From IMG/VR virus record IMGVR_UViG_3300040801_000898, positions 1-41,407 of that record: a DNA stretch of 41,407 bases; one strand, written 5' to 3'. The notes below the pieces were generated by a model. That model searched no databases. It saw only the letters and a program-made list of their open reading frames with translations, and was not told the origin of the DNA. The stretch is from a virus. Below, piece after piece: positions 1,125 through 41,245 of the stretch (positions are counted from its first letter, which is position 1; every line of letters begins with the position of its first letter). The position numbers and the translations under genes are program-made.

Positions 1125-1355
1125 ATGTGGGACCAGCAAGCGAACGAGAGTAGGGCAAAGCCTGTAGTTATTCGTGACGTAGAGTACCCATCACAAGCAG
1201 CGGCAGCGCGGGCTATGGGGGTAACGCCTCAGGCAATCCGCTGGGCGCAGAAATATGGGTCTCTTGATCGCATCGGTACGGTGACCCGGTATCGTGTAGG
1301 TGATTACCCCAAGTTAGGGGATAACAATGGAGAGCAGAGATATGCACTGGATTAA
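1125..1355 (+). CDS. NUMOD1/HTH-like small protein, 76 aa
   Basis: I take the ATG at 1125, preceded by AAAAGGAT twelve bases upstream, rather than an earlier in-frame ATG at 1056 that lies inside the hydrolase gene. Residues about 19-45 (VEYPSQAAAARAMGVTPQAI) look like the NUMOD1-type helix-turn-helix found in phage and homing-endonuclease proteins, which binds DNA. A copy of the dispersed palindrome near the 3' end encodes YPKLGD. It could be a small regulator; the evidence is a weak motif only. Confidence 0.55.
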   Translation: MWDQQANESRAKPVVIRDVEYPSQAAAARAMGVTPQAIRWAQKYGSLDRIGTVTRYRVGDYPKLGDNNGEQRYALD

Positions 1356-1527
1356 ATTGACATTTGCGAATGACGCTGGTATAGTATGGGTAAACTTGGC
1401 TGAGTGCGGTATGATCCAACCTGACCCACAAGGTAACGGATGCCACATCTTTACGAAGCGCACAGGGCCAGTACACGTGCGCCAGTCTATTGAGCAAGTA
1501 CTTAACGCCAAAGCCTATGGAGCATGA
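1342..1527 (+). CDS. Hypothetical protein, 61 aa
   Basis: The start at 1342 (MHWIKLTF) is preferred because GGAG lies nine bases upstream. An in-frame ATG at 1327 is also possible, using the GGGG of the dispersed palindrome as its ribosome site. The protein appears to be a small beta-rich domain with no recognised family. It overlaps the preceding gene by 14 bases and ends just before the next start. Confidence 0.55.
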   Translation: MHWIKLTFANDAGIVWVNLAECGMIQPDPQGNGCHIFTKRTGPVHVRQSIEQVLNAKAYGA

Positions 1528-1531
1528 TAAA

Positions 1532-2041
1532 ATGATGGAAACTGATACAGAACGCAGAGCAAGCGCCGCAGGGTACATGCGCGAACATCGGGCTGCATGG
1601 CGATCTGCAGGGTTTAAGCCTAGTCAGATGATGCTGCATGAGGCAGACCGCAAGAAGGTTACTGCATACATGGAGCTTGTCAAGTACGAGCGCCTTCTTA
1701 CCCTAGTCAAGGGGAAAGACGAGGAAGCCGTTGACCTAGCGGCGACGCGCAACACGCCTAAGCTACCGCCATATGACATAGTAGAGGATTTCCGCGCGAA
1801 GCTAGAAAACGTAGACAACGACGCAGCGCGATCTGCTAACCAGTTGTTCGGAGCAGTGCGGCATTACAGCAAGCTATACAGGGAGCACAAAGCAGCGTCA
1901 AACCTAGACGAGTTTGATGACGAAAAAGCAGCGCTAGCTGTCGTGTACGGTAACCTAGCTAGCGCGGCGTTTAAGCTAGCTAAGGCAACCGTTGAGAGCG
2001 CACTAGAGGAACTAAAGAAAGGTAAAGACGATGCCGGGTAA
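1532..2041 (+). CDS. Hypothetical helical protein, 169 aa
   Basis: The start is placed at ATG 1532 with GGAG eight bases upstream; in-frame ATGs at 1517 and 1535 are alternatives. The product is strongly helical and charged, with Ala-, Glu- and Lys-rich segments that may form coiled coils, and ends in a Lys/Asp tail. A dispersed palindrome at 1700-1714 encodes LTLVKGK. The N-terminal part (AAGYMREHRAAWRSAGFKPS) resembles short phage helical proteins of unknown role. No function is assigned. Confidence 0.65.
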   Translation: MMETDTERRASAAGYMREHRAAWRSAGFKPSQMMLHEADRKKVTAYMELVKYERLLTLVKGKDEEAVDLAATRNTPKLPPYDIVEDFRAKLENVDNDAARSANQLFGAVRHYSKLYREHKAASNLDEFDDEKAALAVVYGNLASAAFKLAKATVESALEELKKGKDDAG

Positions 2042-2516
2042 GGCACCGCAAATCGGTAACAACGCTATGGGAGACTGGGTACTGCGCCAGCGCCAGTTAT
2101 CGCCAGCGCAGGTTGTTGCAGAAGAACAGCGCATAGCTTTTAGTACAAATGTTATGTCAAACTACCTAGTACCGTTTGACAATCCAGATACTGTAACGCC
2201 GTGTGTAAGTTGTGGCGCGTTGGTCACAATTAAGTTTGCAGTCTGCCCGTTTTGCGACAAGGAAACTAAATATGTACAACGTTATAACTCAGCATATAGT
2301 GCTGGAAATCCCGAAGAACGGCAGCAGGACACTAGTACAGGCCACTACCCTAACTTGGGGGAAGAAAAGCATGAAATGCATGGGTCACGCTACGTTGAAG
2401 CAGTTGTTAGAAGACCGGATACCGGCGCAGGTACGGAAGGAGAAACAACCGAAACCGCCGTATCAGGTAGTGGCGGTGATAAGAAACCCGATGACCCGCC
2501 TAGAGAGCATGATTAA
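2031..2516 (+). CDS. Zinc-ribbon protein with disordered tail, 161 aa
   Basis: The start at 2031 has AAGGTAAAGACG in front and overlaps the previous gene by 11 bases. Two CxxC knuckles (CVSC and CPFC, residues about 57-75) indicate a zinc ribbon, typical of nucleic-acid or protein contacts. After the ribbon the sequence becomes low-complexity (Gly, Glu, Asp, Pro). This tail overlaps the sulfotransferase-like gene out of frame by 245 bases. The ribbon is convincing; whether the whole tail is translated is less sure. Confidence 0.55.
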   Translation: MPGKAPQIGNNAMGDWVLRQRQLSPAQVVAEEQRIAFSTNVMSNYLVPFDNPDTVTPCVSCGALVTIKFAVCPFCDKETKYVQRYNSAYSAGNPEERQQDTSTGHYPNLGEEKHEMHGSRYVEAVVRRPDTGAGTEGETTETAVSGSGGDKKPDDPPREHD

Positions 2517-2853
2517 CGAGTACATGAACATAAAGGGCGCTAGCTTGAATGACGCAATGAAGGCGGCGGCTGAGCAATCGCATATCATCTTTAAGCCGCA
2601 ATGGCACTTCATAGACACTGACGGTGGCGTTGACTGTGAGTTACATATGTTTTCTATGGAGCGCATACACAACGCTGTGAAGTTTATAACAAGTGACAAG
2701 ATTACGGCAGCGCCTAGAAAGAATGATGGTCGGGGGAGGCGCAAGGTAGCGTTCCCGCACATAAAAGAGCATAATATGTGTTCCGAAGTGCTGTCACTGT
2801 ATGAGCCTGACTTCTACATCTACGAAAATCTTACCCTAAGAGAGAGGAAATGA
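2272..2853 (+). CDS. Sulfotransferase-like protein, 193 aa
   Basis: The N-terminus has IPKNGSRTL (residues 13-21), which matches the 5'-phosphosulfate loop of sulfotransferases. VVAVIRNPMTRLESMINEYM (residues 66-85) matches the 3'-phosphate-binding RNPxxRxxS region, and the end LSLYEPDFYIYENL has the usual C-terminal pattern. The family moves sulfate from PAPS to hydroxyl or amino groups. The start at 2272 follows AAGGAAACTAAAT; longer in-frame starts add only unrelated residues. A dispersed palindrome at 2347-2361 is read here as TLTWGK. The target is unknown; a host metabolite or surface group is possible. Confidence 0.65.
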   Translation: MYNVITQHIVLEIPKNGSRTLVQATTLTWGKKSMKCMGHATLKQLLEDRIPAQVRKEKQPKPPYQVVAVIRNPMTRLESMINEYMNIKGASLNDAMKAAAEQSHIIFKPQWHFIDTDGGVDCELHMFSMERIHNAVKFITSDKITAAPRKNDGRGRRKVAFPHIKEHNMCSEVLSLYEPDFYIYENLTLRERK

Positions 2854-2856
2854 CTA

Positions 2857-3225: not shown

Positions 3226-3428
3226 GATTTATGGTAGAACGAGACGAGCTAAAGTCTTGGGCTTACCTAGTAACTGACTTGCAGGCTGGCGAAGACCTAG
3301 CCCGGTTCAAGCAGGCACAGGACGCCCATGATTATGCTGCGTGGATGAACGCGCAAGTACTTACCCTAAATGCGGGTAAAGCTCAAACCGGGGGAACCCA
3401 TGCGAAAGCTGATGAACATACAGATTGA
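3222..3428 (+). CDS. Hypothetical protein, 68 aa
   Basis: A small acidic protein starting with ATGA overlap to the membrane protein gene and preceded by AAGGCGAAGC. It overlaps the helicase gene by 29 bases. A palindrome variant at 3363-3377 encodes TLNAGK. No domain recognised. Confidence 0.55.
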   Translation: MRFMVERDELKSWAYLVTDLQAGEDLARFKQAQDAHDYAAWMNAQVLTLNAGKAQTGGTHAKADEHTD

Positions 3429-4725
3429 AGACAGCGACAGAATGGCTAGTGAGGGCGACCTGCCTAACTATAGCCTAGCTGGCACTGGTAAAACACTGTC
3501 AACGCTGGAAGCGTTCAAGAAGGCTGGCCATAAACGTGGTCTAGTACTCTGCCCCCCAATTGCTGTGGCTATGTGGGAAGAAGAAATTAAGAGTTGGTTA
3601 GGCGCTGACGTGCAAGTACTCAAGAATGGTGGTACAACTATACGCAAAGCCGCAGACTTTGTTGTGTGCGCCTTCGATACTGCTAAAGGCACACAGCGCC
3701 CATACATTTATAAAGCCTTTGACGAGGGCGCTATGATCCTTGACGAGGCTCACTATTTACGTAGATACGACAGCAAGCGCACCTGTGCTGTATTCGGCAA
3801 TAGGACCGATGGTGCAGGCGGATTTAGCGAGAAATTTGACCAAGTGTGGTCGCTTACTGGTAACCCGATCTACAGGCACCATGACGATTTGTGGAGCCAG
3901 CTAGCGCCCCTGTTCCCTGACGTGTTAGATCAGTACGGCTGTTTAGAGTATGAAGACTTTGTGCGTAACTTTTGCGTCGCCAAGCTGAAAAAACATCATC
4001 CTAATATGGAGCCTAGACTTACTATTATTCGGTCGCAGAATGAGCCTATCATCAACAAGATTTTGTACAAGGACATTCGCGCAATCCGTAGGTTGGAAGC
4101 GCCTGATTTGCCTGAGTTGGTCACTAGCAGGTTGTTCCCCGCAATGGGGGTAATACCTAGCGAGTATGCTAAGCTGGTAAATAAAATGTCTGAGGGAGAT
4201 TTGTTAAAAGCGCTGGTAAGTACTGACAAAGATGACGAATACATGATGCAACAAGTATGGCAAGCTGTAGCGCTGGCCAAGGTAAAAAGCGGTAGCGAGT
4301 ACATAGCAGAGTGTGTAAGGACAGCGCCTGTACTGGTGGGGGTCTGGAACAGCAGTGTGGGTGAAGCTTACTTGGACGCGCTAAACAAGATGGGCGTAAC
4401 GGCCAAACGAGTGTACGGCGCTACCCCACAATCAGAGCGTGAGGCTATCAGGGATGCCTTTAACAATGGCGACATTGACTGCATCATTGGCCAGATGCAA
4501 GCTATGGGGGTTAGTTGGAACCTACAAAAAGCAAGTAACCGGGTAGTGATTGCGCAAGACCACTTTAGCCCGTCAGTGATTGAGCAGTTTTATAAGCGCG
4601 TGTACCGTACAGGGCAAAAGAACAAAACGTACTTGGACTTCTTTACGTCTAAACATCCGCTGGACATGGCTATCGAAAAGATACGCAGACAGCGGCAACG
4701 CTCTCAAGAAAAGTCTCTTGGGTAA
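3400..4725 (+). CDS. SNF2-type superfamily 2 helicase, 441 aa
   Basis: ATP-dependent DNA translocase or helicase. Walker A is AGTGKT (residues 27-32), the DEAH box is at 114-117, motif III is LTGNP (151-155), and the C-terminal lobe ends with QFYKRVYRTGQKN, the motif VI of SNF2-type phage helicases. The start at 3400 follows GGGGGAACCC. Only about 26 residues precede Walker A, so the usual upstream Q-like segment is short or missing. It probably works in replication or recombination with the Cas4-like nuclease downstream. Confidence 0.85.
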   Translation: MRKLMNIQIEDSDRMASEGDLPNYSLAGTGKTLSTLEAFKKAGHKRGLVLCPPIAVAMWEEEIKSWLGADVQVLKNGGTTIRKAADFVVCAFDTAKGTQRPYIYKAFDEGAMILDEAHYLRRYDSKRTCAVFGNRTDGAGGFSEKFDQVWSLTGNPIYRHHDDLWSQLAPLFPDVLDQYGCLEYEDFVRNFCVAKLKKHHPNMEPRLTIIRSQNEPIINKILYKDIRAIRRLEAPDLPELVTSRLFPAMGVIPSEYAKLVNKMSEGDLLKALVSTDKDDEYMMQQVWQAVALAKVKSGSEYIAECVRTAPVLVGVWNSSVGEAYLDALNKMGVTAKRVYGATPQSEREAIRDAFNNGDIDCIIGQMQAMGVSWNLQKASNRVVIAQDHFSPSVIEQFYKRVYRTGQKNKTYLDFFTSKHPLDMAIEKIRRQRQRSQEKSLG

Positions 4726-4726
4726 T

Positions 4727-4741
4727 CCCCTAAACGAGGGG
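4727..4741. repeat. Dispersed palindrome copy, intergenic
   Basis: CCCCTAAACGAGGGG directly after the helicase stop and 25 bases before the next start. In RNA it could fold as a five-base-pair hairpin with a five-base loop. Confidence 0.8.
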
Positions 4742-4765
4742 AAACAGCAAAAGAAAGGCAATACT

Positions 4766-5138: not shown

Positions 5139-5918
5139 ATGCACGAACGTATAAAGCTTATTGCCCCCATTGTGGACCATGTTATGCAGACTTCTGCACC
5201 TGATACATGGCCTACATATGATGGCAAGATGCTTGATCGTACGCGCTATGTTACGTCGTCAGAAGCTGGATTTTGTATTCGCCGCATATGGTTCAGCAAG
5301 AACATTACCCTACCTGAGGGTAAAGTTAAGTGGGGATTTTTTGAGCGCGGACATAGCCACGAAGCGTGGTTAGTAAGTAAGTTGCATCAAGCAGACTGTG
5401 AGTTAAAGTTTAAGTTTGTGGGTGACGAGCAAGTTTCGTTTTACGCCGGGTATCAAAGCGGTACGCCAGACGGTGTTGCTTACAACTACGAAACTAATGA
5501 GACAATACTGCTTGAGTTTAAGAGCATTGACCCTAGAACAAAAGTTAGCGCTCTCCCTAAAAAAGAGCACGTGCTACAGACTATACAGAATATGGACTTA
5601 GTAGAAGAGTGCTTAGACATAGTGTTCGACTATGCAGTAATAGCCTACTTTGATGCTAGTGACTATTCTATGGTTTACGAGTTTATGATTGACCGTAGTA
5701 ACCCTAAGGTAGGGGACGTTATGGTTGCCTTAGAAGCCCGCGCCGAGAGGGTAATGAAAGCTACTTCGGCAGATGAGTTAGAAGCTGAGGGTATGTATAA
5801 CGGTGGATGTAAATACTGCCCATTCACAAGCCAGTGTTCAGCTTCCGTAACAGCGACAAAACAGGAGAAACAGAATTATGACCGCATCGGCAAAACAAGC
5901 AACGCAGTCTTTGGATAA
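5139..5918 (+). CDS. Cas4-like PD-(D/E)XK exonuclease, 259 aa
   Basis: A RecB/Cas4-type nuclease is indicated by GTPDG with Asp111, LLEFKS with Glu126 and Lys128, a following Gln-containing helix (QTIQNM), and four cysteines placed as in Cas4: Cys46, and CKYCPFTSQC with Cys224, 227 and 233. These would bind a 4Fe-4S cluster. His74 lies in GHSHE. Such phage nucleases resect DNA ends for recombination or replication; no CRISPR array is near. It is the first gene after the strong promoter and starts after AAAAGGGTCACTTC. Two dispersed palindromes lie inside (ITLPEGK, NPKVGD). Confidence 0.8.
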   Translation: MHERIKLIAPIVDHVMQTSAPDTWPTYDGKMLDRTRYVTSSEAGFCIRRIWFSKNITLPEGKVKWGFFERGHSHEAWLVSKLHQADCELKFKFVGDEQVSFYAGYQSGTPDGVAYNYETNETILLEFKSIDPRTKVSALPKKEHVLQTIQNMDLVEECLDIVFDYAVIAYFDASDYSMVYEFMIDRSNPKVGDVMVALEARAERVMKATSADELEAEGMYNGGCKYCPFTSQCSASVTATKQEKQNYDRIGKTSNAVFG

Positions 5919-6260: not shown

Positions 6261-6265
6261 GAAAT

Positions 6266-6280
6266 CCCCTCACTGAGGGG
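6266..6280. repeat. Dispersed palindrome copy, intergenic
   Basis: CCCCTCACTGAGGGG, a perfect palindrome with seven-base arms around one central C. It lies between the coiled-coil gene and the structured leader of the first Acb2-like gene. Confidence 0.85.
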
Positions 6281-6282
6281 TA

Positions 6283-6357: not shown

Positions 6358-6377
6358 GCAAAACAAAAGAGGTCACA

Positions 6378-7748: not shown

Positions 7749-7760
7749 GCTTTCTTAAAC

Positions 7761-7775
7761 ACCCTAACTGAGGGG
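7761..7775. repeat. Dispersed palindrome copy acting as ribosome site
   Basis: ACCCTAACTGAGGGG is followed by AACCTCT and then ATG 7783. The GAGGGG is the only purine-rich segment at ribosome-site distance, so the element seems to serve translation of the next gene. Confidence 0.75.
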
Positions 7776-7782
7776 AACCTCT

Positions 7783-8142: not shown

Positions 8143-9996
8143 ATGCCAGCTTCATATGCCAATGCGGAAGCGCTGCTAAAGAAAAGTAACGCCCAATACC
8201 GTCTCATTGGTATGGACGAAGCAAAAGAGTTGCTGGAAGGTATGGACGAGTTTGCGCTGGACTTTGAAACGACAGCTCTTCATCCTAGAGACGGTCAGAT
8301 ACGCATTACTTCGATCTGTAATGACGAGCACCATTTTATCATTGACCATTTCATTTCCGGCCCGTTCCAGCAACTCTTACCCTCACTGAGGGGAAAGCGT
8401 ATGTGGGTCTACAACGCCAAGTTTGAAAGCCGGTGGTGTGACTACTACTGTGACACTTGGTCGTATGACGATCTTCTAGAAATCTGTGACATAGACTTTC
8501 TTGCGAAGGCTAATATTGGCGGGCATCCTAGCAGCTTGGCGAAGATGGTGGCGCGTGATCTAGATGCGCTGTTGAGTAAAGAAGAACAGAATAGCGATTG
8601 GGGTAGGCAAGTATTAACACAAAGCCAGATGGACTATGCCGCGTTCGATAGCTATGTGACGTGGGAAGTTTTCAAGTATTGGGACGAAAGGCTTAGCGAT
8701 GAACAATTTGATGCCGCACTATTCGTGTTCAACAGCGCTGTCAGGGGGACCGTGGAGTGCGAAGACACCGGACTATATCTTCACTCTGAGCACCACGAAA
8801 ATACAGTGGCGCTATGGGAAACCAAAAGAGATACCTTTGAGCGTTATCTCCGTAGATATACCGACGAAGGGACAATCAAAAACCTTCGTAGTGATATGCA
8901 AATCGGGAACTTTCTTGAGACGCAACTCGACAAGGCTGCCATTGCTGCATGGCCAAGGACAGCTAAGAAAAAGCAGATGCAATTCGAGGGTAAATACCTT
9001 CGGTCGGTTTCGCGGCACTTTTCTTATCCGTTTTCCCGCTGGCTTGCGGCACTCGCGGGCTACAAGTATTACAACAAGTACCTTTCCACTTACGGGGATA
9101 ACCTTCTCACAACAGCAGCCATTGCAGGGAAAATCCATTCGCGCTTTAATATCGCGCAAGCGGCGACCGGGCGCTATTCGTCGTCGTCGCACAACTTGCA
9201 AAACATTCCGAGGAAGCCGGTAGTACGCAAGGCGTTCCATTCCCCTAATCCGGGGGAACTTCTAATGTGCCTTGCTGACTACAAAGGCATCGAAATCAGG
9301 GTTCTTGCGGAGATTAGCGATGACGTACAACTGCGACATGACGCCATATACTCGGATGTACACGCTGCGTCTGCCGCTGCTATCTTTGGCTATGAGGTGG
9401 ACTACGTTACCGAAGTCCTACAATCGGAAGGACAGGGACGATTTGCTAACATCTATCCAGTCATTAAAGAACAGCGTACTAAGGCAAAAGGGTTCACTTT
9501 TCAGCTACTCTATGGGGCTGGGCCAGCGGCGCTTAGTGACGTTCTACGCTGTTCGTTTGACGAAGCGGTAGAAGCCGTTAACGCCTGGGCAACGCGCTAC
9601 CCTAACGCCTACAATTATCGCAACATTCAGTACGACGCGATGATAAACAACAATGGTTACTTGCCAGTCTGGGATGGGCGCACAATCAAGGTCTTCAAGG
9701 ATGACCAGACTATCCCGGTTGCGGCTAACTATGGCGTACAAGGCGCTGCCGCATCTGTCATGTATCGTTGTGTCTATAGGGTTCACAGAAACTTCTTTGA
9801 AGCGGACATTCCTGCGTGGTGCGCTGCTACGGTCCACGACGAAATGCTGAGCTACGCAGAAACCGACTATGCTCAGGAAGCTATGGACTTGCAGATTAGG
9901 GGCATGATTGAGGCTTGGACAGATATATTCCCAGAAACCAACACCGACAACATGGTGGATTATGCGATAGGTGAAACATGGGCAGCGAAGCCGTAA
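8143..9996 (+). CDS. PolA-family DNA polymerase with 3'-5' exonuclease, 617 aa
   Basis: Replicative family A polymerase. Exonuclease motifs are DFE (Asp40, Glu42), NAKFE (91-95, with Glu where Asp is more usual) and YAAFD (165-169). Polymerase motif A is DYKGIEIR starting at Asp379. Motif B carries Arg445, Lys449, Phe453 and Tyr457 in RTKAKGFTFQLLYG, and motif C is HDE at 565-567. Phe453 matches E. coli Phe762; Phe or Tyr here has been linked to virulent phages. A 5' nuclease domain is absent. Dispersed palindromes encode LPSLRGK (79-85) and SPNPGE. The start follows GAGGGCTTTTAATCC. Confidence 0.95.
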   Translation: MPASYANAEALLKKSNAQYRLIGMDEAKELLEGMDEFALDFETTALHPRDGQIRITSICNDEHHFIIDHFISGPFQQLLPSLRGKRMWVYNAKFESRWCDYYCDTWSYDDLLEICDIDFLAKANIGGHPSSLAKMVARDLDALLSKEEQNSDWGRQVLTQSQMDYAAFDSYVTWEVFKYWDERLSDEQFDAALFVFNSAVRGTVECEDTGLYLHSEHHENTVALWETKRDTFERYLRRYTDEGTIKNLRSDMQIGNFLETQLDKAAIAAWPRTAKKKQMQFEGKYLRSVSRHFSYPFSRWLAALAGYKYYNKYLSTYGDNLLTTAAIAGKIHSRFNIAQAATGRYSSSSHNLQNIPRKPVVRKAFHSPNPGELLMCLADYKGIEIRVLAEISDDVQLRHDAIYSDVHAASAAAIFGYEVDYVTEVLQSEGQGRFANIYPVIKEQRTKAKGFTFQLLYGAGPAALSDVLRCSFDEAVEAVNAWATRYPNAYNYRNIQYDAMINNNGYLPVWDGRTIKVFKDDQTIPVAANYGVQGAAASVMYRCVYRVHRNFFEADIPAWCAATVHDEMLSYAETDYAQEAMDLQIRGMIEAWTDIFPETNTDNMVDYAIGETWAAKP

Positions 9997-10313
9997 TACA
10001 TCAATACCTGCAAAAGGCAATGGAAGAAGAGCATGAGCAACTACGACGAACAATAAGTTACCCTTACGTAGGGGAAGCTTTAGGCGGTCCAGCGCACGGA
10101 CAGCTAATATTTTCACACAGCCCTATGTACCGTGTGCCGGTTATTAGCGAGCTAGACCTTGCAAGCGTAGCTAAGTCTAACGAAATTGTCAGTGGGGGCG
10201 TTAAATACGTTACTTACCATTACGCAACTGGTATTTTTGTTGTAGAAGGGTGGGATGGTCTTGTAGAAGACTTAGAGGCAACCATAGAGGATGTGGCTGA
10301 TGATGAAGCCTAA
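9978..10313 (+). CDS. Hypothetical protein, 111 aa
   Basis: Overlaps the polymerase gene by 19 bases and starts after AGGTGAAAC. It has a helical Glu-rich N-terminus, a palindrome-derived SYPYVGE segment, a beta-rich middle and a very acidic end. No family recognised; its coupling to the polymerase suggests a replication role. Confidence 0.6.
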   Translation: MGSEAVIHQYLQKAMEEEHEQLRRTISYPYVGEALGGPAHGQLIFSHSPMYRVPVISELDLASVAKSNEIVSGGVKYVTYHYATGIFVVEGWDGLVEDLEATIEDVADDEA

Positions 10314-10515
10314 GGTCTATAAAGGGTCTGGTCAGACGCTGCGTAACCGAGAGTACAGAAGCCACAATGACTATGACAAATTGTCCATAGAAGACTTGTG
10401 CAAGCCTCTTTCTGGAAAGATAACGCCTAAGTCCAAGAGCTACTTTATAGGAGGGAGAGAGCATGAGCAAGAAACTTCTGTTCAAAATGAGCCTAGGGAT
10501 CAAGGCAATCAGTAA
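10300..10515 (+). CDS. Hypothetical protein, 71 aa
   Basis: The start at ATG 10300 (or 10303) uses AGAGGATGTGGCTG upstream. The protein is basic and polar with no domain recognised. It overlaps the RusA gene by 53 bases, and the C-terminal part beyond 10463 may only reflect that overlap. Confidence 0.4.
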   Translation: MMKPKVYKGSGQTLRNREYRSHNDYDKLSIEDLCKPLSGKITPKSKSYFIGGREHEQETSVQNEPRDQGNQ

Positions 10516-10942
10516 GGGGCGTCCTAGAGCGGCGAAAGGTGGACACTTCTATACTCCGCCGCGTACTCGTGAGTATGAGCGCCAAGTCAGGGAAGCTGCA
10601 GAAGTTATGATGCTGCGCCCACCTGCAGAGTGTCCGGTACATCTTATTATCCACATAGAAGTAACGCCACCGACAAGTTGGCCTAAGTGGAAAAAAGAAA
10701 TGGCGCAGTACATTTCCCCTAAGAAAGGGGATTTAGATAACAAGGTGAAGGCAATCAGTGATGCTCTAAATGGTATAGCGTTTGTGGATGATGTGCAAAT
10801 TAATTGGTTGGAAGCGCAGATGCAATATGGGTCAGATAATCGCGTCTTCGTTGAATTGTATCAGAACGGCATGACGGAAGCGGAAGCTAAGGGACGGTGG
10901 CATGAACAGAATAACAAAGGCAGCGCTAGAGTGGGCGGCTGA
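10463..10942 (+). CDS. rusA: RusA-type Holliday junction resolvase, 159 aa
   Basis: RusA dimers cut four-way DNA junctions. The protein shows the family order: an N-terminal KGRPR strand, the catalytic DLDN (Asp90 and Asp92) and FVDD with Asp109/Asp110, spaced almost as in E. coli RusA (Asp70, Asp72, Asp91). At 159 residues it is somewhat longer than the 120-residue E. coli protein. The start follows AGGAGGGAGAGAGC. A dispersed palindrome encodes SPKKGD immediately before the DLDN motif, so the repeat abuts an active site. It likely resolves replication and recombination intermediates before packaging. Confidence 0.9.
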   Translation: MSKKLLFKMSLGIKAISKGRPRAAKGGHFYTPPRTREYERQVREAAEVMMLRPPAECPVHLIIHIEVTPPTSWPKWKKEMAQYISPKKGDLDNKVKAISDALNGIAFVDDVQINWLEAQMQYGSDNRVFVELYQNGMTEAEAKGRWHEQNNKGSARVGG

Positions 10943-32206: not shown

Positions 32207-32229
32207 GCTTTACCCTCCTTTAGGGGAAG

Positions 32230-32403: not shown

Positions 32404-33840
32404 TTAACGGAAACCGGGTGCCCGGTATGATAAGGTATCCACCTTTTTCCAGTTGCTTTTCCAAGCACCAGAAGACACAGCGCCCTCATGGGAAAACGTC
32501 AGGACGAACGCATCAGCCAAGTTAGGCGACTTCATACCGCGCCGCTTCATCTGCTCTTTACTCTCAATATCCACTTTACCGCTAGACATAATCCGTTGTT
32601 CCACTGACGCCAATTCTTCGATAAACTCTTGCAGCTTGTTCAACTGGCTAGGGATAAACTTGTCATATGCCTCAAACCACTCACGAGCTTTGTACCACAC
32701 CTCAGCGCGCAGCCTCATGTACCGCTCGTTCATAGAAGCCGCCTCACTAACGTTCACCGCCACCACCGGCAACCCCAACTCTTGCAGACGGTCGTACACC
32801 CCAGCGCCAAGGCCGATGCTGTCAACATAAATATTCTCAGGGCGACGATTACTAGGTGTCTGGTCCCACTTTGTCTTGATCCACCCCACCAGCTTCATCA
32901 AGTTATCAAATCGCAACTCATGTAACTCCAACACAGCATTTTTGGACCGAACCACAAACCCACTCGGGTCGCCACCACGCCCCGGATCAATCCCCCAAAC
33001 GAGGGGATAATCCTCAACGTGTACATCGCGGTCAACGGCGCTCTCAATAAACTGGCGCGGGATGACCGCATCCGCCCCGCTCTCGGGAAAGTCACCGAGC
33101 ACACGAACAGCAAATTCGCGGCTGTCGCGGCCATAAGTACGCTCTTGTGACCGAATGTAATCTTCATCGACCCGCGTACTGTCCATGCAGCTAACCTTGC
33201 GGGTCAGCCACAAATCGCTCAACACTGTTTGTGTCTTATAGAAAAACCCGCTCGGCTTTGTAGGGTTACCAATCAGAATAGCAATAGCGCCTTTGGTACT
33301 CAACGCGCCCTGACCAGTTTCATATACCACTTCGTCAACGCCGCTGGCTTCGTCAACGATAATCAAGACATGCGACGCGTGGACCCCGGCTAAAGCCTCA
33401 GGGTTTTCTTTCCGCGCTGTTCTAAATGAGATAAAGTTATTTTTACCGTTCGGCAAACGTACAATACGGTCGGATATACTATCAATGCTAGAACGCATCC
33501 AATCTGGCACCCTAGACAACCATTTTTGGACTTCCGGTATAAGCCCGTCGTTCATCTGCTTGAAGCTAGGAGACGTAACGATCACTTTCACGTCATCGCG
33601 GAACAGCAAAAAGTGAATGGCGTTCCAGCTACAGAACGCTGTTTTGCCGACGCCATGCCCAGACCTAATAGACAACTTTGTTTCGCCGTTGTCCAGCGCC
33701 TGCAGCATTTCCATCTGCCAATCTTCGATGTGCTCAACGCCCAAGACGTGCTTGACAAAATACACGCGAGACCGAGCACACTTAACAATTACTTCTTCTG
33801 CTAGCGCCCTCTGGGCGTCGTTCATATAGCTCAGGTCCAT
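32404..33840 (-). CDS. terL: Terminase large subunit, 478 aa
   Basis: The packaging motor ATPase and nuclease. Walker A is GHGVGKT (61-67), Walker B is VLIIVDEA, the coupling motif is IGNPTKPSG, and the RNase H-like nuclease has GIDPGRGGDPSG and YVDSIGLGAG with the metal-binding aspartates. The palindrome at 32992-33006 encodes YPLVWGID, so it forms part of the first nuclease motif. Another palindrome (33847-33861) lies at ribosome-site distance before the ATG. Confidence 0.95.
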   Translation of the reverse strand: MDLSYMNDAQRALAEEVIVKCARSRVYFVKHVLGVEHIEDWQMEMLQALDNGETKLSIRSGHGVGKTAFCSWNAIHFLLFRDDVKVIVTSPSFKQMNDGLIPEVQKWLSRVPDWMRSSIDSISDRIVRLPNGKNNFISFRTARKENPEALAGVHASHVLIIVDEASGVDEVVYETGQGALSTKGAIAILIGNPTKPSGFFYKTQTVLSDLWLTRKVSCMDSTRVDEDYIRSQERTYGRDSREFAVRVLGDFPESGADAVIPRQFIESAVDRDVHVEDYPLVWGIDPGRGGDPSGFVVRSKNAVLELHELRFDNLMKLVGWIKTKWDQTPSNRRPENIYVDSIGLGAGVYDRLQELGLPVVAVNVSEAASMNERYMRLRAEVWYKAREWFEAYDKFIPSQLNKLQEFIEELASVEQRIMSSGKVDIESKEQMKRRGMKSPNLADAFVLTFSHEGAVSSGAWKSNWKKVDTLSYRAPGFR

Positions 33841-33873
33841 GGATTTACCCTAATTGCGGGGAATGTTATTATT

Positions 33874-33946: not shown

Positions 33947-34144
33947 TCAATTGCTTTCCTGCTGTATAAACATGTTAGATAAACTGTGGGGGTTTGACAT
34001 GTAGCTGAGGCGGGCAGAGGGGGTGCTATACCAGATAGCGCCCCCTCACTTCCCCCAACTGAGGGGACGTTTTCCAAAAAATTATATAAAAATTTTTTCT
34101 GTAGGGACGTTACGTCGCTATAAAACACATACTAAATTTTTTAC

Positions 34145-34417: not shown

Positions 34418-34440
34418 TAAGTGTGCTCACCTGCCATGTT

Positions 34441-34455
34441 ACCCGCAATGCGGGT
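34441..34455. repeat. Dispersed palindrome variant, extended arms
   Basis: ACCCGCAATGCGGGT with flanking TT and AA makes a perfect nine-base-arm palindrome. It belongs to a GC sub-form of the family also seen at 30641 and 38049. Confidence 0.7.
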
Positions 34456-34466
34456 AAATCGGTGGA

Positions 34467-35097: not shown

Positions 35098-35200
35098 GTT
35101 AACGCTCTCTCTAAAGTTGTCCGCATCCTGATAAGGCGGCTTTCAATTGACGTGTCCCGCCCCCCTAAAGGGGGGGACCGTCAACAGCCTCAGGATGTGC

Positions 35201-35444: not shown

Positions 35445-35623
35445 GTCACTAACCCATTGATTTTAAACGGTTTTTTATCCCCTAAAATAGGGTAAAAATA
35501 ACTCATGAAACCTCTTGCAATCCGGTGAAATATGCCTATTTTAAGGGTCAGGGCGCCAGCTATGCCCTACGTTCTTTGACATTGCAAAACATGACTAGGC
35601 ATAGGGGAAACCCGATAATTGCT

Positions 35624-35648: not shown

Positions 35649-35695
35649 CGCGCACTACCGCCTTCCCCCGTTTAGGGGAAGACAGTAGCGCGCGG
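35649..35695. repeat. Long hairpin with embedded dispersed palindrome
   Basis: CGCGCACTAC and GTAGCGCGCG form the outer stem and CTTCCCC with GGGGAAG the inner stem, the latter being a 14-base variant of the dispersed palindrome (35665-35678). It adjoins the left inverted repeat. Confidence 0.65.
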
Positions 35696-35737: not shown

Positions 35738-37084
35738 ATGACAAACACAACTAAAAACCCCGCGATTGACTGGCACAACGAAACGCAATTCATTGACGTT
35801 CACCCAAACGCCGATGCGCCTGAGGCGCTGGCGACTATTGTACGCGTTGAATTGCAAGCCGGTCGGACCGTTGCAGACGGTGAAAAGGTGAAGCGCGCTG
35901 CATGGCGTGTTCGTGCCTTTCATGAGGGGAACACTTACCCAGATGCAAATGCGCCCCAATGCGCAAATGCTAAGGGTGCTATCAGTGCTGTTATCAAGGC
36001 GCTGTTTGGAGGGTCTAAGCATCATGATATTGACGCTGCAGCGGCGCAATTCAAACTGCCCGAATTGGCAGAAGAGGAAAGCGAAGAACCTGCAGTGAAA
36101 TGGACTGAGCGCGAAGACGTAGACCATTTGCGTCATTTGCAGGAAAGCGCAGATCAAGCCGCGCAAAAGTATCTGAGCGGCGAAGGCGATATGCGGGACG
36201 GGTTTTATAACCTGTCGCGCGACGTTGCAGAAGTTGCCGAAACGTTGAGTGCAAAAGAGTTTGGAGAGTGGACGAAAGCAGGCGGCGAAACACTGCGCAA
36301 GGTGTTGTCAGGTAAGAACGCGAAAGCGGAATTCCTGAAAATTGGTCGCTTGCCGCGTGATTACTTTGACGCGATGCCCGAAACGTCTAACAGCGCTAAG
36401 GCATATGAGCGCAACGTTAACCTTGATAAAGTTGACGTTGCAGAAGCGGTCGCGATTGAGGCATGGGGGAAAAAGAAAAACTCCCCTAAGCCGGGGGAAG
36501 TGCTCAAGGCGCTGTCGTCTGAATTGGCGGCGATGTCAGAAGACAAAAAAGCACCCCGCCGCGCAATTTTCGCTCAGCACTGCCAGACGTTCCTTGATAA
36601 ATGGCTTGACGGTTTCCAGATCAATCCTTTTGAGATTGATGGGGAAAGCGGTCTTTTGGTCCCTGCCAAGGAAAAGGCGGGAGAGCGCAACGGTATGTAT
36701 ATTGCACCTATCCAATTCGGGACCGGCAAGCGCGCACATGAGCTTGTGCAAGCTGTGTGCAAGGCGGTCAACGCGATGACGCCAGAAGCGAAAGCGGAGG
36801 CGGAAACAGCGGAAACCGAAAAAGAAGTTGCAGCGGCTGTTAAGCCGCGCACCTTTGCTCAGTACGGTGTGACAGAAGCGGCAATGCACTTGGCGCGCAT
36901 CCTGTCGGCACATGAGGATTACAATGCAATCCTTGATACGATGGGCGACATGGCAGACCGGGCAGACAAGGCCGGGGAAAACGGCTGGTCTGAGGTGCTA
37001 GCAGACGTTGCAAATCAAGTAAGCGCTGAGAAAGCGGAGGCAGAAGAGGCGGAAGCGGAAACAGACGCCGATGACGCGGCCTAA
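35738..37084 (+). CDS. Unknown early protein, 448 aa
   Basis: The start at ATG 35738 follows AGGAAAGCAC; the frame is open further upstream, but that region holds only regulatory repeats. The protein is soluble, helical, rich in Ala, Glu and Lys, with a Glu/Ala tail. A beta-rich first 100 residues (HNETQFIDVHPNADAPEALA) is followed by a long helical body. A palindrome encodes SPKPGE. It is flanked by 24-base inverted repeats and followed by a hairpin. No family is recognised; size and leading position suggest an abundant early protein. Confidence 0.75.
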   Translation: MTNTTKNPAIDWHNETQFIDVHPNADAPEALATIVRVELQAGRTVADGEKVKRAAWRVRAFHEGNTYPDANAPQCANAKGAISAVIKALFGGSKHHDIDAAAAQFKLPELAEEESEEPAVKWTEREDVDHLRHLQESADQAAQKYLSGEGDMRDGFYNLSRDVAEVAETLSAKEFGEWTKAGGETLRKVLSGKNAKAEFLKIGRLPRDYFDAMPETSNSAKAYERNVNLDKVDVAEAVAIEAWGKKKNSPKPGEVLKALSSELAAMSEDKKAPRRAIFAQHCQTFLDKWLDGFQINPFEIDGESGLLVPAKEKAGERNGMYIAPIQFGTGKRAHELVQAVCKAVNAMTPEAKAEAETAETEKEVAAAVKPRTFAQYGVTEAAMHLARILSAHEDYNAILDTMGDMADRADKAGENGWSEVLADVANQVSAEKAEAEEAEAETDADDAA

Positions 37085-37338: not shown

Positions 37339-37446
37339 GCTTCGAAAAATTTTTGTGAAAAACATCATGCGTGTTTGGGCGCGCGTATATGCACGAGATC
37401 GCGCCTAGTAAGGTGGCCGATTTTAGCTGCAAAAGCGTGAAATTTT

Positions 37447-37461
37447 CCCCTAAAGCGGGGG
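37447..37461. repeat. Dispersed palindrome copy before a promoter
   Basis: CCCCTAAAGCGGGGG flanked by AATTTT and AAAAAAT, 22 bases upstream of the -35 box. With the T/A flanks it could also be a weak terminator. Confidence 0.75.
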
Positions 37462-37483
37462 AAAAAATAGTTTAAAAAAGTTA

Positions 37484-37562: not shown

Positions 37563-37763
37563 ATGAAAGACCGTGTGGAAAAAATCATTGCGTATCAGAC
37601 GCAGTATTGGGGTAGCAGCCTGTATGAGGCAATCATGGCTGTGGCTGACGTTTGTGATCTGGACAACGAAGAATTGGACGCGCTGGAAATGGATTTGGCG
37701 TTTGGTCCTGCGGCGCGGGAAATGGTCTTTGTGCCTTGCTTTCCCCTTCCTGAGGGGAAGTGA
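37563..37763 (+). CDS. Hypothetical acidic protein, 66 aa
   Basis: ATG 37563 follows GGAGTGGATAAC; an in-frame ATG at 37524 lies too close to the promoter. A small helical, acidic protein whose last codons (FPLPEGK) come from a dispersed palindrome, which also gives the ribosome site of the next gene. Confidence 0.6.
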   Translation: MKDRVEKIIAYQTQYWGSSLYEAIMAVADVCDLDNEELDALEMDLAFGPAAREMVFVPCFPLPEGK

Positions 37764-37766
37764 CCG

Positions 37767-38513
37767 ATGGCTGATATCAACAAAATCCGCGAGAAACTGG
37801 CAGCGCTGCTGTCTCGGGCGCGCGATGCTGGGTCAAGTGAGGCTGAGGTTGCCGCTTGTATGCAGCGCGCAGAAAAACTGATGGCCCAATATGGGCTGTC
37901 AGAAAGCGATTTGGACGATGTAACCGCGAAAGACTTTCGGGAGTACACTATTAACCCGCCTGAGGGTCGGTCTGCGCATGATCCGATTGTGCGCTATCTT
38001 GCCCCAGCGATCGGTAGGCTCACAAGCGTTACTTTTTACATCGACAATACCCGCAATGAGGGGAAGTTGGCACCTATTGTGTCGTTTGGTCTGGAAGCAG
38101 ACGTAGAGTACGCGCACTGGTTGATTAAGTCTCTGCGTACCTTTATGGACGATCAATGGGTTGACTACAAGCAATGGCAGCTTGGCGCGTGTACACGTAA
38201 CGAATTGAAAGCAGAGCGTATCGGATTTGTGCGCGGCTTTGTGGACGTTGTTGCTGCGCGCCTCAAAGAAATGACTGCAGACCGGGCAGAGGGTGGTGCG
38301 GAGAGTGGCAGCACGTCGCTTGTAGTCAAGAAAAACGATTTGGTAGCGAAAGCGCTGGCAGACCGTGGCATCAATTTGGGGCGCGGTGCGAGCCTGTCAG
38401 GAAATGGTCGCGGTAGCGACACAGGCCGACAGGCAGGCGCAGTTGCTGGCAACAGCGCTAACATTGGACGTGGCGTAGGCCAGTCTTCAATCGCAATCGG
38501 GGATGGGCGCTAA
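37767..38513 (+). CDS. DUF2786 family protein, 248 aa
   Basis: The N-terminal 50 residues (IREKLAALLSRARDAGSSEA, then EVAACMQRAEKLMAQYGLSE) match DUF2786, found in many phages and bacteria with unknown role. A mixed domain with WLIKSLRTFM follows, then a C-terminal Gly/Ser/Arg-rich tail. A palindrome encodes TRNEGK. The start lies ten bases after the palindrome at 37743-37757. Confidence 0.8.
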   Translation: MADINKIREKLAALLSRARDAGSSEAEVAACMQRAEKLMAQYGLSESDLDDVTAKDFREYTINPPEGRSAHDPIVRYLAPAIGRLTSVTFYIDNTRNEGKLAPIVSFGLEADVEYAHWLIKSLRTFMDDQWVDYKQWQLGACTRNELKAERIGFVRGFVDVVAARLKEMTADRAEGGAESGSTSLVVKKNDLVAKALADRGINLGRGASLSGNGRGSDTGRQAGAVAGNSANIGRGVGQSSIAIGDGR

Positions 38514-38521
38514 GCGCCTAT

Positions 38522-38536
38522 CCCCTCAGATAGGGG
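38522..38536. repeat. Dispersed palindrome copy as ribosome site
   Basis: CCCCTCAGATAGGGG followed by AAATATC and ATG 38544. Between two genes, with no other ribosome site. Confidence 0.8.
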
Positions 38537-38543
38537 AAATATC

Positions 38544-38906: not shown

Positions 38907-38913
38907 GCCGCTT

Positions 38914-38928
38914 CCCCTAAGCGGGGGG
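38914..38928. repeat. Dispersed palindrome copy as ribosome site
   Basis: CCCCTAAGCGGGGGG followed by AAAGCT and ATG 38935, the start of a one-helix peptide. Confidence 0.8.
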
Positions 38929-38934
38929 AAAGCT

Positions 38935-39062: not shown

Positions 39063-39083
39063 AGCATAGAGAAAGGGTCAAAC

Positions 39084-39401: not shown

Positions 39402-39525
39402 GCAGGAATTGCAACGCATCGGTGTTTCCCCCAAGCGGGGGGAACATGCACAGGTCACATGGCCGAAACCTGCTAAAAGGGGCGTTGGCGAAAGCTGTCC
39501 CATAGCAAACCCGGAGGAAATCTAA
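39376..39525 (+). CDS. Hypothetical protein, 49 aa
   Basis: ATG 39376 overlaps the previous gene by 26 bases; its stop overlaps the next ATG (TAATG). A palindrome encodes SPKRGE in the middle. A small soluble peptide, unknown. Confidence 0.5.
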   Translation: MTDIPAQLEQELQRIGVSPKRGEHAQVTWPKPAKRGVGESCPIANPEEI

Positions 39526-39815
39526 TGGGTCATAGATTGAATTGCAAGACGGTGCGCGAGTTGTCGCACAAGGTTAACGTTGGGCTTGGCGTCGGTACGC
39601 GCGCCGGGTACCCTATCAATTATAGCCGGTCGTGGTATATCGGCGCAGTGGTGCTGGACAATGTGACTGGTAACCTGTGGGAAGTGGGCGTTGTCACTAC
39701 CACTAGCGGCGGCACCACTAGCCTAACACGCGGCACCTTGCGCGAGTGCTACAACTACCTGCAGGGTATGCACAAAGCAGTTACCCTAAGTAAGGGGATG
39801 GCAGATGCCGCATGA
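39525..39815 (+). CDS. Hypothetical protein, 96 aa
   Basis: GGAGGAAATCTA precedes ATG 39525. A beta-rich protein with WYIGAVVLDNVTGNLWEVGV and a Thr/Gly turn. The palindrome at 39783 encodes TLSKGM near the end. No family recognised. Confidence 0.65.
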   Translation: MGHRLNCKTVRELSHKVNVGLGVGTRAGYPINYSRSWYIGAVVLDNVTGNLWEVGVVTTTSGGTTSLTRGTLRECYNYLQGMHKAVTLSKGMADAA

Positions 39816-40026: not shown

Positions 40027-40753
40027 AATAGCAGATGAAATGATCGAAAGGATGATGTTTCCTGATTATGACACGGTAGAACGCAGAGCGTACAGCGCTA
40101 GCTTGTCGTCGTATAGCCCGACTACATACGGCAAATGTAAATGCGGTCATAGTATGGAGCCAGCACCGCCTAATTTACAAGATAGGCGCTTTCATGCTGG
40201 AGGCAGACCGTTTGTTGTAGATTACTATTGTAGAAAGTGCAAGTATGTGCATGTCACATACGAGAGCGGTACTAAAGTAGCTTGGCCTATGAGTAGGCTC
40301 AAACCGGTAGGCGAAGCTTCCCCTAAGTTGGGGTATCAGAAGAAGACAGCAGCAAAACAAATCTTTGGAAAGGGTCAAGACATGACACAGAAAACACTCT
40401 ATGAAGTTACCGTTGACGGGAAGATTACCTACGGTCACAAGCTGGCAGTCAACAGCAAGGGCCAGTGGGTGCTCGAAGAGAAGGGTACAGGCAACGTCCT
40501 TACCGTCGAGAAGGCATACGTGGCCGAGGTTATGCCGTACACCGTCGCTATCAAGTTCTGCGGTGTCGGTAATGATTACAACTTCTTCGCAAAAGAAGGT
40601 GACGTTGAAGTTGGCGATATCGTCTATGTCCGAGGTTACAATGATTGGGGCAGAGTGTCGGCTATCGGCACTAAGTCCAAGCGGGCAACCGTATGGCTGA
40701 ACGGCGCCAAGCTGGCGTCAACCGAAATCATTAACGAAGGGGAGGCAGACTGA
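40019..40753 (+). CDS. Zinc-ribbon fusion protein, 244 aa, with internal start
   Basis: The N-terminal part (about 1-121) has a CKC...CRKC zinc knuckle pair. The C-terminal 123 residues form a beta-rich domain (VTVDGKITYGHKLAVNSKGQ). ATG 40383, in frame, is preceded by AAAGGGTCAAGAC, the leader used by other genes here, so a shorter product (40383-40753) is likely made as well. A palindrome (40320-40334, SPKLGY) marks the junction. It may be two genes joined in frame. Confidence 0.6.
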   Translation: MGEIADEMIERMMFPDYDTVERRAYSASLSSYSPTTYGKCKCGHSMEPAPPNLQDRRFHAGGRPFVVDYYCRKCKYVHVTYESGTKVAWPMSRLKPVGEASPKLGYQKKTAAKQIFGKGQDMTQKTLYEVTVDGKITYGHKLAVNSKGQWVLEEKGTGNVLTVEKAYVAEVMPYTVAIKFCGVGNDYNFFAKEGDVEVGDIVYVRGYNDWGRVSAIGTKSKRATVWLNGAKLASTEIINEGEAD

Positions 40754-40869
40754 TGGACTTCCTTGGCGCAACTATAGCCCTTTTGATCTGGGCAGCACTA
40801 GCCATTGCGGCGCTTGTCGTCGGGTTCTTTGTGGTCGGGCTGCTGGCGGTCAACCTCGGGATAGTGTAA
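40753..40869 (+). CDS. Small membrane protein, 38 aa
   Basis: Starts in a TGATG overlap after GGGGAGGCAGAC. Almost entirely hydrophobic with one long helix (ALLIWAALAIAALVVGFFVV). A hairpin follows. Function unknown. Confidence 0.6.
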   Translation: MDFLGATIALLIWAALAIAALVVGFFVVGLLAVNLGIV

Positions 40870-40874
40870 AACTT

Positions 40875-40904
40875 ACCGCTGGCGGGAATTGTCTCGCCAG
40901 CGGT
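40875..40904 (+). terminator. Hairpin after the small membrane gene
   Basis: ACCGCTGGCG (40875-40884) and CGCCAGCGGT (40895-40904), a perfect ten-base stem. No T tract follows, so it may attenuate rather than stop. Confidence 0.55.
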
Positions 40905-40921
40905 CCAATCAGGGGGCTGAT

Positions 40922-41245
40922 ATGGACTATTTCAACTATCTAGTTTCTAACAGGGAGGGTACGTGCATCCGGCAAGAAGGCGTTGATGCTATCTGGCCAG
41001 ATGATGACAGAGCGCCGCTAACTGTTGACGGTAAAACGCCGTTCAAACTGCCGCCCACTTGCGCTGAAAACGTGCAGACATTCGAAGAACAAGTTGGTTA
41101 CGACACTCTACTAGCGTTCATAGACGGGGAGCCGTTACCGCCCCCAGCTATACCGTTACCTAGCAGCGCGGTCTTGTTGGTTACAGCGCTAGTGGTAATT
41201 TTTATTTTTATACGTAATTACCCTAACAGGGGGGAACAGAAATGA
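40922..41245 (+). CDS. Tail-anchored membrane protein, 107 aa
   Basis: ATG 40922 follows AGGGGGCTGAT; an in-frame ATG at 40889 lies in the preceding hairpin. An acidic soluble part of about 75 residues, then a helix (SAVLLVTALVVIFIFI) and a short tail encoded by a palindrome (NYPNRGEQK). Function unknown. Confidence 0.6.
   Translation: MDYFNYLVSNREGTCIRQEGVDAIWPDDDRAPLTVDGKTPFKLPPTCAENVQTFEEQVGYDTLLAFIDGEPLPPPAIPLPSSAVLLVTALVVIFIFIRNYPNRGEQK

Follow-up and report, generated by a model that had tools for sequence, protein, structure and literature searches.

A genome-wide, evenly spaced family of palindromes in a group of podovirus-like phages: putative protein-binding sites that differ in dialect between lineages

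The highly iterated palindrome 1 (HIP1) of cyanobacteria is a dense short palindrome of cellular genomes, an ungapped word of 8 bp. The conserved inverted repeats of the temperate phage phiC31 are repressor operators present at many loci, with about 18 copies mainly between genes, and the Noc boxes and matS sites are spread chromosomal palindromes, far sparser than the sites treated here, each bound by an architectural protein of the host (the ParB-family protein Noc, and MatP). The stoperators of the cluster A mycobacteriophages are asymmetric 13-bp sites with a known repressor and lie predominantly one way along transcription; up to 30 of them are described per genome, each phage having a single motif, and motif distance correlates with repressor distance, syntenic sites being compared (PMC6550527). 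For phage tf 14 nick sites are described, asymmetric, 9 bp long and on one strand only, and in relatives of the LUZ24 group similar positions of putative sites with an altered word, for which a co-evolution of nickase and site was proposed (PMC3517423). The present analysis concerns a family of palindromes found throughout an IMG/VR virus record of 41,407 bp (IMGVR_UViG_3300040801_000898), the whole of which is called the window below. The palindromes were pointed out in a first-pass annotation made from the letters alone.

A 19-bp palindrome, TTMCCCTMANTKAGGGKAA, has 53 strong copies in the window, a strong copy being one that scores at least 15 in a symmetrised 19-bp position weight matrix (PWM). 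At a score of at least 11 the number is 55, and at a score of 9 there are 63 positions, overlapping registers counted, against a mean of 1.3 across 10 shuffles; a matrix re-estimated by expectation-maximisation finds 57 sites, against 0.5 in 10 shuffles. Training and counting used one and the same genome, with the shuffles as controls, and the matrices, symmetrised by construction, give no test of site asymmetry; the unsymmetrised column counts are nevertheless mirror-like in flanks and centre. The arms CCCT-N5-AGGG are found in 26 copies, against a mean of 0.37 and a maximum of 2 in 200 dinucleotide shuffles. The expression [AC]CCC-N7-GGG[GT] gives 54 matches, of which three are overlapping registers (at 11319/11320 and 35160-35162), and the match at 12959, which scores below 6 in the matrix, was excluded from the site count. 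N7 is the enriched spacing, as N6 gives 26 matches, N5 12 and any other at most 6, and several of the N6 and N5 matches are N7 sites read in a different register. Being its own reverse complement, the word is present on both strands (46 and 46). The first-pass estimate of about 50 palindromes was thus slightly low, and the shuffled-genome count is near zero and not near 50. The family described there stands but its length of 15 bases does not, since TT/AA flanks in the unsymmetrised counts lengthen the site to 19 bp and the exact 15-mer [AC]CCCTNANTNAGGG[GT] has just 8 copies.

Related records and contigs are designated by G numbers, the window being G000; the bearers among them are metagenomic and often fragments. 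From 468 loci of capsid-protein relatives 80 were kept, and 78 of these, together with longer contigs, were scanned for inverted-repeat families with no motif assumed. The enriched words in the relatives were exact 4-mer inverted repeats. An enriched family is present wherever capsid identity is about 68% or more, although the shortest fragments hold just 3-6 copies, and in a capsid tree 14 bearers form one clade (support 0.998). Five records of 39-43 kb, treated as near-complete with no completeness value given, carry 44-57 sites each, a density of about 1.0-1.4 per kb. The motif is spelled in dialects: TTCCCCTMANTKAGGGGAA in the window, G001, G015, G010 and G002; T.MCCCTAANTTAGGGK.A in G005, which was matched through its portal; TTCCCCTAATTAGGGGAA in G021; ASTCCCCACTAGTGGGGAST in G020; ASTCCCTANYRNTAGGGAST in G003; AGTCCCCCGNNCGGGGGACT in G017 (11 sites) and TCCCCCASTGGGGGA in G019 (seven sites). 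The length changes with the lineage, from 18 bp in G021 to 19 bp in the window and G001 and 20 bp in G020 and G003, with altered flanks. In the seven bearing records tested, the record's own motif is found 29-57 times against shuffled means of 0.4-1.4. The window matrix finds 57, 43, 16 and 45 sites in G000, G001, G005 and G021, but 4 in G020 and 3 in G003, and no matrix of the first four finds more than 5 in either of these two. Between G003 and G020 the matrices work in both directions, that of G003 finding 40 sites in G020 and that of G020 finding 36 in G003; among the first four records neither finds more than 4. Record pairs G010/G012 and G008/G009 each resemble one virus and have the same sites, so they are not independent.

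Four non-bearing relatives give 0-4 matches to any dialect, which is chance-like. Most of the more distant relatives scanned showed no palindrome family, none of 49 further loci (L212-L260) rose above the cut-off of z 8, and nothing comparable was seen in the cultured portal relatives MW202711, phiM5, pCB2047-A and MW805364. Outside the bearer clade of the capsid tree, G026 (IMGVR_UViG_3300028388_000361; loci L130 and L197) has 36 evenly placed copies of TACCTAWWTAGGTA in 20 kb. Locus L127, with 7 copies of TAGG-N5-CCTA, was rejected when its whole record G025 gave clustered sites with a coefficient of variation (CV) of 1.46. In Roseobacter phage DSS3P8 (80-120 kb, L201) there are 18 copies of GTCA-N7-TGAC where about 0.9 are expected; they are clustered and uneven and probably a different regulatory family.

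Many sites are found at the same place in related genomes. Within 3 bp and in the same dialect, G000 and G001 have 12 of 28 aligned sites in common (0.11 expected), and G000 and G010 14 of 18 (0.17). Across dialects the numbers are 5 of 23 for G000-G021 (0.07 expected), 2 of 18 for G000-G003 (0.07), 4 of 18 for G000-G020 (0.10), 3 of 17 for G003-G020 (0.07) and 4 of 11 for G001-G003 (0.04), and expectation is exceeded in all 15 pairs tested. The portal gene is an example, with a site in the window, G021, G003 and G020, in each case in that record's own spelling. Other sites are re-registered by 1 bp or have moved by about 40 bp. Orthologous genes of non-bearing or other-dialect phages lack the codons that spell the site in the window.

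Two arms of genes on the plus strand (1-12.9 kb and 35.5-41.4 kb) hold the replication and early genes, and a single minus arm (12.9-35.1 kb) holds mostly structural genes. The claim that copies lie about every 800 bases on both arms, in genes and between them, agrees with a mean interval of 739 bp and with 39 of 57 sites being coding. The intervals in the window have a CV of 0.54 against 0.97 for random placement, and 0 of 20,000 simulations were as even; sites are more even than random (p <0.02) in 11 of 15 motif-bearing records (G000, G001, G002, G003, G005, G010, G017, G018, G020, G021 and G026). Intervals below 150 bp number 7 of 335 pooled over ten bearing records, where the per-record expectations sum to about 55. 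No helical phasing of the intervals was seen (vector length 0.062, expected 0.055). The early arms carry 1.67 sites per kb and the late arm 1.13. On a coding map from which nine alternative or overlapping open frames were excluded, 18 of the 57 sites are intergenic where 6 are expected, and the 39 coding ones compare with 50.9 expected. Inside genes the sites favour variable, gap-prone parts of the proteins: compared with four non-bearing phages, the proteins have a residue identity of 0.25-0.30 where 13-15 window sites could be aligned and of 0.42-0.44 at controls. That the sites lie where proteins pay least would fit selection for a site per stretch of DNA and not for control of single genes. 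As had been noticed early, the arms are kept while the centre varies, and much of this variation follows the reading frame: the central base is at codon position 0, 1 and 2 in 3, 21 and 15 of the 39 coding sites, and the centre letters in each frame mostly avoid stops, e.g. CTM ANT GAG, or CCT AAN NTA GGG in another frame.

The explanation to which we would give about even weight is that a protein encoded by the phage, and evolving together with its sites, binds the palindromes throughout the genome and thereby organises the DNA or marks it as self. Its parts differ in strength. A DNA site read by a symmetric protein is the best founded of them and quite likely correct; that the phage encodes the reader is probable, as specificity follows phage lineage and a phage gene is the simplest source; the architectural or self-marking role has at best an even chance. 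A site for a phage DNA-binding protein was among the first-pass suggestions, and the symmetry without covariation of paired bases (see below), the dialects and the conserved positions make a putative site of this kind the suggestion that fared best. The model proposes that each palindrome is bound by a symmetric phage protein, dimeric or two-headed, and that selection keeps one site per about 0.7 kb in either arm where the coding sequence permits. Protein and about 50 sites would co-evolve, giving lineage dialects with a good part of the positions retained. The role would be genome-wide and independent of individual genes, the protein sitting on the phage DNA, or bridging it, at evenly spaced points, and bridging, compaction or self-marking would serve replication and packaging. 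What the sequences show are the sites with their enrichment, even spacing, unpaired facing bases, dialects and conserved positions; the dimer, its phage origin and its role are inferred.

A wider formulation, which we put forward tentatively and regard as somewhat less probable than not, is that these phages, an apparently virulent clade of podovirus-like type, bear a code of identity and architecture along the whole genome, driven by competition between co-infecting relatives. The code would consist of a palindromic site per about 0.7-0.9 kb, a phage-encoded reader and short-range avoidance between sites, and sets of about 50 sites would switch dialect together, half-site spacing included, while many of them stay put. 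What calls for attention is that about 50 sites per genome change both sequence and half-site spacing in concert with many positions retained. How a regulator and all its sites shift specificity together is a long-standing problem, and the 40-kb genomes, of a size that allows them to be tested whole, offer natural replicates of it. If the wider formulation is true, this would be the first phage system that we know of where a set of chromosome-organising or self-marking sites and its reader can be followed as their specificity changes across lineages. Titles and abstracts of the open-access PMC literature gave no paper on such a phage family, which is weak evidence because subscription papers and preprints lie outside that search. 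Should the architectural or self-marking role be true, phage genome organisation would gain a new layer, and the orphan protein A1, discussed next, could stand for a new class of sequence-specific protein.

Candidates for the reader were sought by following 15 of the 61 listed window frames with profiles, all 61 being compared by tblastn. Four of the 15 are found in the long bearer records and are absent from five non-bearer records: A1, a phrog_421/DUF2786-DUF7168 protein, a RusA resolvase and a protein of about 100 aa. The phrog_421 family profile matches window 37767-38510 with E 1.2e-36, and all five long bearer records have the gene, against none of four non-bearers. A1 is in the same five long bearers, with nothing above threshold in five non-bearer records; its six-member profile reaches G020 (5e-8) and G003 (1e-6), and the best non-bearer value is 0.66. 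A1 diverges fast: in an alignment of eight members its identity falls from 44-47% in the nearest relatives to 30-33% in G005 and G021 and 21% in the other dialect group. Window A1 matches no Pfam or PHROG family, other members give scattered single-member matches with E 0.02 at best, and sequence searches gave no solved relative for A1 (best E 0.14) or for the phrog_421 protein (best E 0.11). Members of the phrog_421 family are also present in unrelated phages, and the stretches read of these lack such palindromes, which puts A1 first without proving it; A1 would be the first candidate binder and the phrog_421 protein the second. The best PDB matches of the A1 models (Z 4.8 and 5.4) are at a level common among unrelated helical folds, and that the predicted fold is new does not follow from the failed structure matches.

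Several observations weigh against the main explanation. The bearers are one clade, and common ancestry alone may explain why some genes go with the sites. No recognised DNA-binding fold is found among the candidates. The A1 structure models have a mean pLDDT (predicted local distance difference test) of 55.5 with 4 sequences and 64.8 with 8 sequences, and a Foldseek search of PDB and viral models with the second gave no match at E <=0.001. The A1 equivalents of G003 and G020 were missed at first and are weak at maximum sensitivity, although they are backed by synteny, lying at the same place upstream of phrog_421. Among distant phages that have phrog_421 relatives, the stretches read of RDJL6 (40 kb) and phiM12 (30 kb) show no comparable palindrome family, and that of DSS3P8 (40 kb) shows a different, clustered one. 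The G026 contig lacks the early region, and the candidates cannot be checked there. The dialects are also incompletely separated, as the G021 matrix finds 29 window sites and the G026 matrix 25 sites in G021; most aligned sites lie elsewhere across dialects (e.g. 14 of 18 for G000-G020); and even spacing is not significant in the fragments G015 (p 0.08), G016b (0.26), G106 (0.11) and G019 (0.06).

The first alternative is that the sites are roadblocks at which a phage repressor silences transcription everywhere during dormancy, as stoperators do in the cluster A mycobacteriophages. We regard this as doubtful, yet to be taken seriously. Stoperators are the closest published precedent (PMC6550527), and the divergence of dialects resembles immunity groups. 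Stoperators as described there are however asymmetric and mostly one-way, and the palindromes are symmetric: among 27 asymmetric sites turned to transcription, A...G and C...T stand at 20:7 (binomial p 0.019), so that of the early claim that such copies follow transcription a weak bias remains and a strong directionality does not. Tyrosine integrase, serine recombinase and HTH_3 (PF00589, PF00239 and PF01381) gave no match at E 0.01 in the nine records searched, five of them bearers and some with record ends missing. In a scan of species genomes the window's dialect was nowhere dense in the way expected of a prophage, and roadblocks do not obviously need even spacing.

A little less probable still is that the palindromes serve as nick sites or as two-way Chi-like sites that guide a nuclease or recombination complex of the phage. 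An SNF2-like helicase, a Cas4-like exonuclease and a RusA resolvase are present, the last confined to bearers in this comparison, and a regularly spaced two-way signal would protect both ends. The nick sites of the LUZ24-group phage tf, with similar positions and an altered word, are a precedent (PMC3517423). The tf sites described are nevertheless asymmetric and one-stranded, whereas the sites here are palindromic; helicase, exonuclease and polymerase are found in non-bearers as well, and pCB2047-A, a phage with no comparable palindrome family, has an annotated RusA. Should a repressor or a nickase turn out to be the reader, stoperators or nick sites would be extended to a new group with an unusual geometry.

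That the reader is a host protein, a nucleoid, division or segregation factor whose dialects the phages match, with sites of the Noc, matS, KOPS or HIP1 type, seems improbable. It would explain why no binder is recognisable and why the dialect would change with the host. The species-genome scan, which covered the window's dialect only, found the window 19-mer in 67 stretches of an 84,980-species collection, and the recurring genomes are Bacteroidota (the host of the phage is not identified); three proteobacterial genomes counted whole have one window 19-mer each. For the window's dialect a host reader is unlikely. Exact copies number 18 in Mucilaginibacter myungsuensis (G031, 5.1 Mb) and 8 in a Bacteroidaceae metagenome-assembled genome (G032, 2.0 Mb). 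The chromosomal repeats of these two (e.g. L029 and L060) are identical to near-perfect versions of the window palindrome, and they are likely unrelated to the phage palindromes.

An RNA hairpin in every transcript, another early suggestion, is very improbable. The consensus could form a 7-bp stem with a 5-base loop. However, the variable symmetric columns taken together hold fewer Watson-Crick pairs than independence predicts in 9 of 9 genomes (181 against 190.6 in the window), with single columns slightly above the prediction in some, and at one column 25 of the window's 53 sites have mismatches (16 A-G and 9 C-T). Facing letters are thus unmatched, which speaks against hairpins and in favour of a DNA site whose two halves are read separately. 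No better placed is a mobile micro-element inserted many times, for instance of the REP/REPIN kind, which had also been proposed. Sites adjoin alignment gaps more often than control positions do, and insertions overlap 76 of 411 site comparisons against 1239 of 26105 controls (24,866 without insertion). Yet when a site is set against the aligned site-less orthologue, 335 of the 411 comparisons, which share sites and are not independent, show no insertion and just 11 an insertion of 5-8 residues, and related genomes inherit the positions, within a dialect as well as from one dialect to another. Chance or codon usage alone has next to no probability: the reading frame does shape the site centre, but the shuffle counts, the own-motif counts far above them, the intergenic excess and the lower protein identity at sites all contradict it.

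The genes of the window include, besides those already named, DNA polymerase, primase-helicase, major head protein, portal and a terminase match, and named portal relatives include Sinorhizobium phage phiM5 (30.6%) and Sulfitobacter phage pCB2047-A (28.3%). All features are collected in Table 1; the gene starts at 35738 and 4763 were chosen by eye, that of A1 with the help of an alignment. Some further elements were observed. A second palindrome, GTTTAACNTTAAAC, has four non-coding copies between 34318 and 34417 near a small terminase-like gene, with 3 copies in G001, 4 in G006, 2 in G015, 1 each in G020 and G021 and 0 in seven other contigs; the cluster is possibly an operator or origin. Direct repeats of CCAATRAAATCAAGYACTTA, one copy with a mismatch, lie at 35209-35401 in the AT-rich leader of the early arm, and their core CAAGTACTTA recurs at 1495 and 3354; these are possible promoter-like control repeats. 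Matches to an Acb2/Tad1 hairpin domain just below the Pfam cut-off make the proteins at 6321-6770 and 7783-8139 candidate anti-defence nucleotide sponges. A GDSL-like esterase/lipase at 559-1122 in the early arm is a weak match below cut-off.

Table 1. Palindrome sites and bearer-tracking genes of the window, with position weight matrix (PWM) scores and relatives having a site at the corresponding position.
Feature	Position	Strand	PWM score	Remarks
Palindrome site TTACCCCAAGTTAGGGGAT	1304..1322		23.8	
Palindrome site	1698..1716		19.9	
Palindrome site	2345..2363		22.3	
Palindrome site, one arm degraded	2831..2849		17.7	
Palindrome site	3361..3379		22.7	
Palindrome site, SNF2-like helicase gene	4135..4153		22.8	common to G005, G010
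Palindrome site	4725..4743		23.6	
Palindrome site, Cas4-like exonuclease gene	5305..5323		23.2	common to G001, G005, G010; G021 3.5 bp off
Palindrome site	5699..5717		15.9	common to G001, G010
Palindrome site, intergenic	6264..6282		22.2	
Palindrome site at stop codon	6758..6776		24.0	
Palindrome site, intergenic	7759..7777		21.5	
Palindrome site, DNA polymerase gene	8377..8395		27.0	common to G001, G005, G010, G021
Palindrome site, DNA polymerase gene	9240..9258		21.2	also G001, G010 (1 bp shift), G020 (other dialect)
Palindrome site	10058..10076		22.5	
Palindrome site	10714..10732		21.2	also G001, G010; G003, G020 in own dialects
Palindrome site	11317..11335		22.6	common to G001, G010, G021, G020
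Palindrome site	12607..12625		24.5	common to G001, G010
Palindrome site	14059..14077		22.0	
Palindrome site	14948..14966		25.2	common to G001, G010
Palindrome site	16110..16128		24.5	common to G010
Palindrome site	17033..17051		21.8	
Palindrome site	17549..17567		23.8	common to G010
Palindrome site	19392..19410		15.7	common to G001, G002, G010, G021
Palindrome site	19913..19931		21.9	common to G010
Palindrome site	20290..20308		21.4	
Palindrome site	20996..21014		22.0	common to G002
Palindrome site	22205..22223		22.6	in relatives ~36-40 bp away
Palindrome site	23706..23724		20.6	
Palindrome site	24106..24124		22.7	common to G008/G009 (overlapping records)
Palindrome site, one arm degraded	24909..24927		19.5	
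Palindrome site	25902..25920		25.1	
Palindrome site, symmetry perfect except centre	27324..27342		27.9	common to G021
Palindrome site	29334..29352		25.5	
Palindrome site, GC-rich centre variant	30639..30657		16.0	
Palindrome site, portal gene	31223..31241		20.4	also G002; G021, G003, G020 in own dialects
Palindrome site	32210..32228		24.1	
Palindrome site, large terminase gene	32990..33008		20.7	common to G005, G006, G015
Palindrome site	33845..33863		23.9	
Palindrome site, intergenic	34050..34068		22.7	
Palindrome site, GC-rich centre variant	34439..34457		20.1	
Palindrome site upstream of A1	35477..35495		21.5	
Palindrome site upstream of alignment-chosen A1 start	35662..35680		17.7	
Palindrome site within A1	36481..36499		18.1	
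Palindrome site, intergenic	37445..37463		21.1	
Palindrome site just 5' of phrog_421 gene	37741..37759		23.7	common to G001, G015
Palindrome site	38047..38065		22.3	also G001, G015 (<=1 bp)
Palindrome site, intergenic	38520..38538		23.0	
Palindrome site, intergenic	38912..38930		24.4	
Palindrome site, intergenic	39426..39444		23.1	
Palindrome site	39781..39799		23.3	
Palindrome site	40318..40336		23.8	
Palindrome site	41218..41236		22.4	
Weak copy, doubtful	17635..17653		12.3	
Weak C/G-run copy, doubtful	35160..35178		13.1	
Small early protein, ~100 aa	4763..5077	+		start by eye; bearers only within comparison made
RusA-family resolvase	10463..10942	+		Pfam PF05866; bearers only within comparison made
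A1, orphan 448-aa early protein	35738..37084	+		opens + early arm; putative first candidate binder
phrog_421 / DUF2786-DUF7168 protein	37767..38513	+		Pfam; putative second candidate binder or partner

Compared with the systems described at the outset, the palindromes differ from HIP1 in belonging to phages, in their length of 18-20 bp, in their variable centre and in their lineage dialects. With the localized single-strand interruption sites of tf and the LUZ24 group (PMC3517423) they share the genome-wide distribution of short sites, the convergent gene arms, and positions that are kept while the word is changed; the tf word is confined to one strand, and the about 53 palindromes here are readable from both. 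The nearest known kind would seem to be the stoperators of the cluster A mycobacteriophages and their repressor Rep, with which the palindromes have in common one motif per phage, tens of copies, lineage specificity and synteny. The asymmetric site and predominant orientation given for stoperators (PMC6550527) are not found here; what sets the present family apart from them is that its sites are palindromes of 18-20 bp, that they are evenly spaced, and that the spacing of the half-sites itself differs between lineages.

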